Positions 4,098 to 6,402 of a stretch of 44,355 nucleotides of DNA are shown here, piece after piece; position 1 is the stretch's first letter, and every line of letters starts with the position of its first letter. The notes beneath the pieces are model-generated. The model made no database searches. It was given only the letters and a program-made list of their open reading frames with translations, and was not told the origin of the DNA. This stretch comes from Opitutales bacterium (GTDB lineage Bacteria; Verrucomicrobiota; Verrucomicrobiia; Opitutales; Opitutaceae), in assembly GCA_018700525.1 (NCBI GenBank), contig JABITN010000065.1, positions 1 to 44,355 of the forward strand. Reading direction: 5' to 3'. The position numbers and the translations under genes were made by a program.

Positions 4098-4661
4098 ATG
4101 ATTTCCAAAAAGTCCATCCTTTACTTCCTCTTTATCGCAGTTGCAGTCGGATTCACCGGTTGTAAAAAAAAGCCCCGCCGCCCCAGCCCAATTGACACAG
4201 TGCGTTTAGGCTCCGCTGAAAATAGCGGTGGCGACAATTTCGAAAGCCTCAACGACTCGAACACTTTCCTAGATCAAAGCGACGCAATCGAGGATCGTGG
4301 CGACTTTACGGGAGAGCGTGGAGATCCAAACGTGATCCGAGTCATGGTCTACTTCGATTTCGATTCCTCGAGCATCAAAGCGAGCGAACGAGCGAAGATT
4401 GCCCAAGCGGCCGACTACCTGCGAAGCAATCCAGGACACCTTTTAATCCTTGAAGGTCACTGTGACTGGAAAGGCACTCCCGAGTACAACCTTGGCTTAG
4501 GTGAGCGCCGTGCGACCAGCGTCAAGCAATACATGGAAACGCTCGGCATCTCCTCTGCGAGCCTGGAAACCCTTTCCAAGGGTGACCTCAACGCAGTCGA
4601 AGGCGTATCATCGACTCAAATGGCTGAAGATCGCCGCGTAGCGTTCCTTGTCGTTAGGTAA
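4098..4661 (+). CDS. pal: peptidoglycan-associated OmpA-family lipoprotein (Pal-like)
   Basis: The 187-residue protein starts with a lipoprotein signal peptide whose lipobox reads GFTGC, so Cys22 would be acylated. A flexible linker follows, then a C-terminal OmpA/Pal domain: VYFDFDSSSIK, LEGHCDWKGTPEYN and NLGLGERRA. The conserved Asp and Arg in these motifs bind the diaminopimelate of peptidoglycan in family members. It would tether the outer membrane to the cell wall, normally together with TolB. tolQRAB and ybgF are not adjacent, which is unusual for Pal, so a free-standing OmpA-like lipoprotein is the alternative. The gene stands alone between divergent neighbours and is followed by a strong terminator. 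Confidence 0.88.
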   Translation: MISKKSILYFLFIAVAVGFTGCKKKPRRPSPIDTVRLGSAENSGGDNFESLNDSNTFLDQSDAIEDRGDFTGERGDPNVIRVMVYFDFDSSSIKASERAKIAQAADYLRSNPGHLLILEGHCDWKGTPEYNLGLGERRATSVKQYMETLGISSASLETLSKGDLNAVEGVSSTQMAEDRRVAFLVVR

Positions 4662-4686: not shown

Positions 4687-4723
4687 AAACGCTCGCGTCT
4701 TAATTGACGCGGGCGTTTTTTTT
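4687..4723 (+). terminator. intrinsic terminator after pal
   Basis: The hairpin AACGCTCGCGTC / GACGCGGGCGTT has a 6-base loop and is followed by a run of T. It lies about 25 bases after the pal stop codon. Confidence 0.9.
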
Positions 4724-4909
4724 ACGCGGGAACCTAAGAATGGCGACAGGAGATCCATATCGATCGTTTACAGAAACGTAACGAATAAATCTGAACTGAT
4801 TATTGTAATTTGGATAAAAGGTGGTAACACACCAGCTTTCAGGAGATATCGGGTTCCTGTGCTACGCACGTTGACGCGACCTCCTATTAGCATTAAGCAG
4901 AAAATAATC

Positions 4910-5398
4910 ATGGAAAAAGCCACTAAGAAAGCAGCTAAAAAGGCGCCAGCCAAGAAAGCGGCAAAAAAAGTAGCTACAAAAGCAGCCCCTAAAAAGGTCG
5001 CCAAAAAAGCAGTGAAAACGGTAGCGAAGAAGGTTGCAGTTAAAAAGACTGTCGCACCCAAAGCGCCTACTAAAAAAGCGGTAGCCAAAAAGGTTGCGGT
5101 TAAGAAAGGTGTCGCCAAGGAAGCTCCAGCCAAGAAGGCAGCCCCTAAGACGGTTGTCGTTGCAACCGTCGATGTTGGATTCGGCAATATGCTCTACCTC
5201 CGTGGTGACGCTCCGGGCTTGTCTTGGAAAAAAGGCGTTCCCATGGATTGCCAGAGCGCCGATTCCTGGAGCATCACAATGTCCGGAGTGAAGGATGCCT
5301 TCGAATACAAGGTGTTGATTAACGACATACATTGGGCATTAGGCGAGAACAACTTAGCCAAGCCAGGAGTGGCGAATTCTACGAATTCGTCCTTCTAG
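4910..5398 (+). CDS. Lys/Ala/Pro-rich histone-tail-like protein with C-terminal E-set/CBM48-like domain
   Basis: From the ATG at 4910 the product has 162 residues. Residues 1-80 are almost only Lys, Ala, Pro, Val and Thr, in AAKKAPAKKA-type repeats like eukaryotic histone H1 tails and bacterial Hc1/AlgP proteins, so this part probably binds nucleic acid. Residues 83-162 form a compact acidic-to-neutral domain (DVGFGNMLYLRGD, PGLSWKKGVPM, FEYKVLIND, WALGENN) that resembles the glycogen-binding E-set domains (CBM48/AMPK-beta type). An upstream GTG at 4859 would add 17 residues of no such character, so I prefer the ATG, although its ribosome-binding site is weak. The function is unknown; a nucleoid protein sensing a sugar polymer is only a guess. 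Confidence 0.75.
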   Translation: MEKATKKAAKKAPAKKAAKKVATKAAPKKVAKKAVKTVAKKVAVKKTVAPKAPTKKAVAKKVAVKKGVAKEAPAKKAAPKTVVVATVDVGFGNMLYLRGDAPGLSWKKGVPMDCQSADSWSITMSGVKDAFEYKVLINDIHWALGENNLAKPGVANSTNSSF

Positions 5399-5421: not shown

Positions 5422-5462
5422 AAAGAGCCTGTAGCCTCCGTGCTGCACGGCTCTTTTTTTTT
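5422..5462 (+). terminator. intrinsic terminator, possibly bidirectional
   Basis: The arms AAAGAGCC and GGCTCTTT enclose a smaller hairpin (GTGC/GCAC) and are followed by eight or more T. It lies between the convergent histone-tail gene and xerD. The A-rich left flank gives a short T-run on the minus strand too, so it may serve both genes. Confidence 0.85.
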
Positions 5463-5481: not shown

Positions 5482-6402
5482 CTACAAAGACACGTCGCCT
5501 TGGCTTCTTGGATGGTATTCCTCATGAGCCGTCTTCACGCGATGAGCTTCGACTGAAGTGTAAATCTGAGTCGTCGAAATATCCGCGTGCCCCAATAATT
5601 CTTGAATGACTCTCAAGTCCGCTCCGCCCGTCAAAAGGTGCGTTGCGAATGAATGCCTGAGGCCATGCGGCTTAACAGGCTTCTCAATACCGACCTCTTT
5701 CGCATACCGCCTTACCATAACCCAAACCGTCTTGCGCGAGATTGGGGTACCGCGATTGCTGATAAAACACGCACTCCCGGTCTTCGGCTTCACCAAACCC
5801 GGTCGCCCCTGCTCCAAGTATCCAGATAAAGCCAACACCGCCTGAAACCCCATCGGAACCACCCGCTCTTTAGAGCCTTTTCCATATACCTTAATAGCCC
5901 CATTCGCTATGTCGATCTGCTGCAGTAAAGCGCCGCACAATTCGCTCACTCGCAAACCCGACGAATAGAGCAACTCGAGGATCGCCCGATCCCGCAAGCC
6001 TTGCGGCTTCGTCAGTTTCGGAGCATTTAGCAAAGCCTCCACTTCATGAATCGTCAACGAACTCGGCATTTTCCTCCTAAGCTTCGGACCTGTCACCAAC
6101 TCCATAAACGAACGCTTTATGCGCTCCTCCCTCAACAAAAACGTCGAAAACACGCGTAACGCGCTAAGCTTTCGACAAAGGCTCGCATTCGAAAAATTGT
6201 CCTCGCTCAACGAGTAGATCCAATCCGAAACGTCGCTCCCATCAATGCTATCCCAATCCGATCGGCCATATCGCTTCGAGGCGAAGCACGCGAACTGCTC
6301 GATATCGCTTTGATAAGCTTGAACCGTATTTTCGGACAGTCCTTTTTCCAAAGCGGCAAACGCCAGAAACGCGTCCAAGCCTTCCAATAATCGATCACTC
6401 AC
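5482..6402 (-). CDS. xerD: site-specific tyrosine recombinase XerC/XerD type
   Basis: The protein has 306 residues, the normal Xer length. An N-terminal SAM-like core-binding domain (about 1-110, LSENTVQAYQSDIEQF) is followed by the catalytic domain with all six active-site residues: Arg151 (SSGLRVSEL), Lys175 (VYGKGSKER), His246 and Arg249 (PHGLRHSFATH), His272 (LLGHADI) and the nucleophile Tyr281 (TTQIYTSVE). Xer proteins resolve chromosome dimers at dif. The lack of phage-like arm-binding extensions and the housekeeping neighbourhood favour the cellular enzyme. Whether it is XerC or XerD cannot be settled without its partner, which is not in the window. Confidence 0.9.
   Translation of the reverse strand: MSDRLLEGLDAFLAFAALEKGLSENTVQAYQSDIEQFACFASKRYGRSDWDSIDGSDVSDWIYSLSEDNFSNASLCRKLSALRVFSTFLLREERIKRSFMELVTGPKLRRKMPSSLTIHEVEALLNAPKLTKPQGLRDRAILELLYSSGLRVSELCGALLQQIDIANGAIKVYGKGSKERVVPMGFQAVLALSGYLEQGRPGLVKPKTGSACFISNRGTPISRKTVWVMVRRYAKEVGIEKPVKPHGLRHSFATHLLTGGADLRVIQELLGHADISTTQIYTSVEAHRVKTAHEEYHPRSQGDVSL

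Follow-up and report, generated by a model that had tools for sequence, protein, structure and literature searches.

A small protein of the Opitutales with a histone H1-like basic tail and a CBM20-like domain, a possible tether of glycogen to the nucleoid

The window, the whole stretch of 44,355 nucleotides that was analysed (contig JABITN010000065.1, assembly GCA_018700525.1, from an Opitutales bacterium), showed at 4910-5398 on the forward strand an ORF with an ATG start, encoding a protein of 162 amino acids in which Lys/Ala-rich residues are followed by a beta-sandwich of 80 residues. The ORF called mechanically begins with GTG at 4859 (179 amino acids); the ATG at 4910 was preferred because it agrees with the basic ATG starts of the relatives. 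The features of the locus are as follows.

4687-4718, forward strand: terminator-like hairpin that follows the OmpA-family gene lying upstream (hairpin scan)
4910-5398, forward strand: complete gene for basic tail and CBM20-like domain, 162 amino acids and a stop codon (ORF and translation; starts of the relatives)
4910-5146, forward strand: Lys/Ala-rich tail predicted to be disordered, residues 1-79 (composition, AlphaFold, sub-threshold Pfam HC2)
5147-5395, forward strand: predicted CBM20-like beta-sandwich, residues 80-162 (AlphaFold pLDDT 93.2; Foldseek, VIA)
5225-5227, forward strand: Trp106, aligned with glucoamylase Trp543, site one (hhalign register)
5309-5311, forward strand: Lys134, aligned with glucoamylase Lys578, site one (hhalign register)
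5333-5335, forward strand: Trp142, aligned with glucoamylase Trp590, site one (hhalign register)
5348-5350, forward strand: Asn147, aligned with glucoamylase Asn595 (hhalign register; Asn/Asp in 81/81 rows)
5438-5450, forward strand: terminator-like hairpin 3' of the gene (hairpin scan)

The homologue set consisted of the best 80 of 383 relatives, picked by the domain match alone with the tail ignored. Since a basic tail poor in acidic residues precedes the domain in all 80, an accident of the reading frame can be ruled out, and by this comparison the ORF at 4910-5398 is a genuine gene.

The upstream neighbour is an OmpA-family gene (4098-4661; Pfam OmpA, E 6e-16), which the hairpin at 4687-4718 sets apart from the gene of the tailed protein, and the convergent neighbour at 5482-6402 looks by its sequence like a tyrosine recombinase. 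Five terminator-like hairpins were found in the scanned kilobase, as compared with a mean of 1.6 in shuffled sequence. The gene is predicted to be monocistronic, in agreement with the single-gene protein of the preliminary description. No recognised glycogen gene lies beside it within the window, and among the 80 homologue loci no cluster of recurrent neighbours hinted at glycogen. At 41 of these loci (L055-L117) there is, tail to tail and at most 150 bp away, an ORF belonging to a single neighbour cluster, which was built by single linkage and includes some spurious frames; all eight cluster members scanned matched DUF374. This neighbour marks a stable position, not a joint function, and the neighbourhood gave no operon clue to function. 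The convergent neighbour in the window differs from the DUF374 gene seen at the other loci.

The tail of the window protein (81 residues by the rule used) contains 37% Lys and 30% Ala and has a net charge of +28, in agreement with the H1-like tail of KA, KP and KV repeats noticed at the outset. Its richest stretch of 80 residues reaches 67.5% Lys plus Ala, as compared with 26% in the best such stretch elsewhere among the window ORFs of at least 150 amino acids; the DNA encoding the tail is weakly repetitive, with a 12-bp unit and 65% matches. An AlphaFold model of the full-length protein, made from 18 sequences, gave block-mean pLDDT values of 50-59 over residues 1-70 and showed no secondary structure before residue 80 and a folded domain after it; the tail is accordingly predicted to be disordered. 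Pfam HC2 scored 20 bits on the window protein, below the cut-off of 40, so that membership of the HC2 family was rejected; the best HC2 score among the other proteins scanned whole was 28.4.

In the window protein and its 80 homologues (81 rows) the tail is 24-137 residues long, contains 12-44% Lys and carries a net charge of +7 to +50 (median +14), the acidic residues Asp and Glu having a median of 0% and a maximum of 6%. An order-wide set of 85 rows, obtained after three duplicates were taken out and with start codons set by rule and possibly wrong in some, showed a net charge of at least +8 in 77 tails. The other eight are weakly basic, with net charges from 0 (the lowest, in L191) to +7, and six of them belong to genomes of 0.9-1.3 Mb; a number of these tails are rich in Cys, with Cys-x-Cys motifs. 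By these counts a basic tail is the rule in the family, yet not essential to it. Tails with at least two Cys residues, often as Cys-x-Cys or Cys-Cys, were observed in certain families of the order and among its small genomes (L191, L194-L197, L199, L201-L207); these might possibly bind metal.

The C-terminal domain was modelled with AlphaFold2 from an alignment of the window domain and the 80 homologues from named contigs, and the model is all beta with a mean pLDDT of 93.2. Foldseek against the PDB gave four matches under 0.001 (E 4.3e-5 to 6.3e-4), two to glucoamylases and two to STBD1/maltotetraose chains, all of them CBM20-bearing. The five best rows of VIA were all cyclodextrin glucanotransferases (Z 11.6, rmsd 2.2-3.0, 85-88 residues aligned), CBM20 chains of glucoamylase, STBD1 and beta-amylase appeared at Z 9.7-11.2, and the list ended with a laforin chain (Z 9.4) and a CBM25 chain (Z 9.1). 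AMPK-beta/SNF1-beta chains began at Foldseek rank 5 (E 2.2e-3), with TMq values of 0.47-0.58 versus 0.67-0.73 for the four best CBM20-bearing chains; no AMPK-beta chain occurred among the 50 VIA rows listed, which excludes nothing. The preliminary description had likened the domain to CBM48/AMPK-beta. Structure prediction upheld a beta-sandwich of the alpha-glucan-binding type, whereas CBM48/AMPK-beta was set aside as the closest family, since Foldseek places AMPK-beta chains lower than the best of the CBM20 chains. By the fold rank of the model and the register of the binding site, the domain is predicted to be CBM20-like.

Pfam CBM_20 matched nine of the 81 members (best E 4.4e-5, with matches listed up to E 10) and gave no match on the window member alone; run on the domain by itself, Pfam and NCBIfam produced nothing but weak matches besides CBM_20. 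With hhalign, the family profile aligned to four CBM20 sequences with P 9e-4 and a low probability of 22%, and to the A. niger glucoamylase domain with P 0.0089 and a probability of 4.5%. The best match in a profile search of PDB sequences was the starch-binding domain of B. cereus beta-amylase, at E 0.67 too weak when taken alone, and a PDB match from a single-sequence search was set aside as a chance match. The family has a signature of its own, GFGNxLYxRG...LSWxxG...LxNDxxW, and the motifs from which the domain was first recognised (GNMLYLRGD, PGLSW, FEYKVLIND and WALGENN) are all found in the translation.

Starch site one of CBM20 is formed by Trp543, Lys578 and Trp590 (glucoamylase numbering), and site two (Tyr527, Tyr556) varies between CBM20s (PMC9920598, available in part). 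In both hhalign alignments, positions of the LSW, FKxLIND and NDxxW motifs fall on Trp543, Lys578 and Trp590, respectively. Trp106 and Trp142, the candidate carbohydrate-contact residues, thus align with site one, and the complete Trp-Lys-Trp triad is invariant in 81/81 tailed rows (the window and 80 homologues). It is invariant again in 88/88 further tailed rows, which come mostly from genomes throughout the order and overlap in part with the first set; the rows are related by descent, so that the figures are counts rather than independent events. The position of Tyr527 is aromatic in 80/81 and 86/88 rows, and that of Tyr556 sits in a gap of the alignments.

In many genomes of the order there is, in addition, a larger paralogue whose C-terminal domain is the same. 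Among 41 such paralogues, 35 have two N-terminal hydrophobic segments only, four have one, one has none, and one has two N-terminal segments and a third further on. TM-like segments are absent from the window protein and from 79 of its 80 homologues. The middle part of the large paralogue (L032-L039, L152-L184) is long and, by eye, of coiled-coil and low-complexity character. Positions of the fold are kept in these proteins (R25, G26 and G36 in 41/41, D66 in 40, N65 in 38 and W47 in 35), and the triad is relaxed, its residues being present in 24, 11 and 6 of 41. As the triad is kept in the tailed form and relaxed in a paralogue of the same fold, the fold does not need it, and its strict conservation alongside the tail suggests selection on a sugar site. 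No large paralogue was detected in the genome from which the window derives.

The fusion is no isolated case. A survey of 105 genomes of the order, each at least 90% complete, showed that it is common there: at E 0.001 the domain was present in 90 genomes, with small and large forms told apart by the length of the open frame. The small tailed form was found in 73 genomes, 49 of which have the large form too; 16 had the large form only, one had a fragment of 66 residues and 15 had no match. One single-contig genome listed as 95% complete (G511) yielded zero candidates for any of four queries and was counted as a miss in these totals, though it says little.

In a sample of the class, 45 of 236 genomes matched, 42 inside the order and three outside; 20 of the unmatched genomes were listed, all from outside the order, and 171 more had no match. 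In a sample of the phylum there were 43 matches among 288 genomes, all within the order. Two of the three class members outside the order (L143, L146) have small tailed forms with a net charge of +10. The third (G152) gave a weak match (E 8.5e-4) within a frame of 744 residues, and was set aside as apparently a different protein. The best 80 homologues bore labels such as Opitutaceae, Opitutales, Opitutus, Puniceicoccaceae, Pelagicoccus, Ereboglobus or unclassified Verrucomicrobia; a single one was labelled Akkermansia. Judged from these samples, the domain is common in one bacterial order and rare outside it.

One homologue was found outside the phylum, in a Kitasatospora plasmid record (L247:2375-3514), with the triad intact. 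There the domain (hhalign P 4e-20) precedes a putative esterase (Pfam Esterase, E 1.5e-27), the only part of the protein that Pfam names, as would a carbohydrate-binding module placed ahead of an enzyme. The N-terminus of this protein resembles a signal peptide by eye. Neither the domain in phage records nor a relative in viral contigs was found; with this single plasmid record of an esterase, a mobile origin was not supported.

GlgA scored over the cut-off in 92 of the 105 order genomes. GlgB and GlgP were examined in 16 genomes, the 13 without GlgA and three with it, and among the 13 GlgB was present in 11 and GlgP in 12. These counts indicate that glycogen turnover is nearly universal among these genomes; this agrees with a tether of glycogen without testing it. 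The small tailed form does not track GlgA: of the 13 genomes in which GlgA does not exceed the cut-off, 10 have the form, and in one family of the order (f2) GlgA was found in 9/9 genomes sampled, seven with the large form only and two with no match. Co-occurrence is therefore non-discriminating. Six genomes of another family, f21 (G056, G206, G178, G504, G514, G522), have GlgB and GlgP but no GlgA over the cut-off, and there may be another route of glycogen synthesis in them.

The preliminary description held that no described function fits such a combination, but the logic of granule-to-nucleoid tethers does. In PhaM and PhaF a histone-like domain attaches PHB/PHA granules to DNA, and it has been proposed that AlgP does likewise for polyphosphate granules (PMC13052382, PMC9239181, both available in part). 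The C-terminal domain of PhaF is largely disordered without DNA, and its N-terminus comprises a phasin helix and a leucine zipper (PMC3574117, available in part). As far as the available parts of these sources go, the three proteins likewise unite a module for a storage polymer and an H1-like basic tail in one chain. They differ from the protein described here in that the granule module is phasin or helical rather than CBM20-like, in that the tail is C-terminal rather than N-terminal, and in the target polymer, PHA for PhaF and PhaM and polyphosphate for AlgP, as compared with the glycogen predicted here. Measured against a tether of this kind, the tail is basic and disordered by composition and prediction, and the other module has a polymer-binding fold, its binding to a granule being putative. 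Descent from the PhaF phasin was rejected, the folded part being all beta and a Pfam phasin match absent.

CBM20 domains of glucoamylase, cyclodextrin glucanotransferase and STBD1 have the same fold (VIA Z 9.8-11.6) and the same register of site one. The domain here differs from them in its length of about 80 residues, in its own conserved signature, in not being borne on an enzyme in the order protein, and in that Pfam CBM_20 misses 72 of the 81 members. STBD1 is a non-enzyme animal protein with a CBM20 that is predicted to anchor glycogen (PMC5358331, available in part), and its CBM20 alone has served as a label for glycogen in live E. coli cells (PMC12706056, available in part). STBD1 is a transmembrane protein, whereas the small protein carries a basic tail in place of a membrane part and shows no TM-like segment, for which reason a membrane receptor of the STBD1 type was rejected for the window protein. 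The large paralogue shares the STBD1-like membrane layout, yet its sugar site is relaxed. HC2 and other histone H1-like nucleoproteins have the Lys/Ala-rich tail in common with the window protein, in which a domain of sugar-binding type comes after it.

That a CBM20 on the non-enzyme STBD1 can direct glycogen binding supports proposing a tether, and together with the logic of PhaF, PhaM and AlgP it leads to the proposal, to which we lend not quite even confidence, that the protein is a cytoplasmic receptor of glycogen (alpha-glucan) whose basic tail tethers the polymer to the DNA of the nucleoid. Through one site (Trp106, Lys134, Trp142) the CBM20-like domain would attach to glycogen or to another polymer with alpha-1,4-glucan chains, and the flexible Lys/Ala-rich N-terminal tail would bind polyanions, of which the DNA of the nucleoid is the most likely. 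With many copies bound to it, a glycogen particle would be held to the nucleoid; this would counteract the mutual exclusion between glycogen and the nucleoid that is reported in E. coli, and would help to distribute the glycogen store and share it out at division. Sugar binding is predicted from the conserved site, well supported by sequence, and better grounded than the DNA half; from the composition of the tail we infer that it would tether DNA, and we further infer that glycogen would be the ligand and that tail and domain would act together in the cell. A link between a nucleic acid and a sugar polymer, as was suggested at the start, is plausible for a basic tail joined to a fold of the alpha-glucan-binding type.

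Lys/Ala tails are unspecific polyanion binders, and the tail sequence shows nothing that separates DNA from other polyanions. It is conceivable, if unlikely, that the tail of a glycogen receptor binds RNA, ribosomes or polyphosphate, so that glycogen would be linked to ribosomes or to polyphosphate granules; AlgP, with its KPAA tail, sits on polyphosphate granules (PMC9239181), but Pfam reveals no further domain in the present protein and the nearest functional precedents with such tails are described, in the available parts of their sources, as DNA binders. Rather improbable is a protein of the glycogen surface whose tail has no specific partner and serves just for solubility, particle spacing or condensation. 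The wide variation of tail length and Lys content in the 81 rows and the short, Ser-rich or Cys-rich tails of several small-genome members would suit such a role, whereas a tail that stays basic and nearly acid-free in every one of those rows argues against it. A CBM20-like domain with another ligand (another sugar, or a glycosylated or protein partner) unrelated to glycogen would account for one of the two CBM20 sites being kept whole, for the failure of Pfam CBM_20 on the window member, for the sole homologue found outside the phylum being on an esterase and not an amylase, and for a large paralogue that retains the fold without the triad, but this is the most doubtful reading, given a starch-site-one triad invariant in both sets of tailed rows and four Foldseek matches under 0.001 that are all CBM20-bearing.

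Returning to the tether of glycogen to the nucleoid, the order may possess a way of its own to place glycogen, in which a nucleoid tether built from an H1-like tail and a CBM20-like domain is accompanied by a membrane-anchored paralogue that shares the fold of that domain; this wider proposal is put forward as a possibility only. As far as the open-licence literature shows, both module types are already known and their combination is new: no tail-CBM20 fusion and no glycogen counterpart of the PhaF, PhaM and AlgP tethers was found in it. The word glycogen is absent from the available text of a 2025 review of organelle placement (PMC13052382). In E. coli, glycogen accumulates at the old cell pole, where it displaces the nucleoid (PMC12706056). 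Chromosome tethers are known for PHA granules, and one has been proposed for polyphosphate granules; if the reading is true, the H1-tail strategy would have been reused for a third storage polymer, and the protein would be the first example, within the open-licence literature, of a bacterial protein dedicated to positioning glycogen on the chromosome. It would also provide a genetic handle on whether the inheritance of glycogen is controlled.
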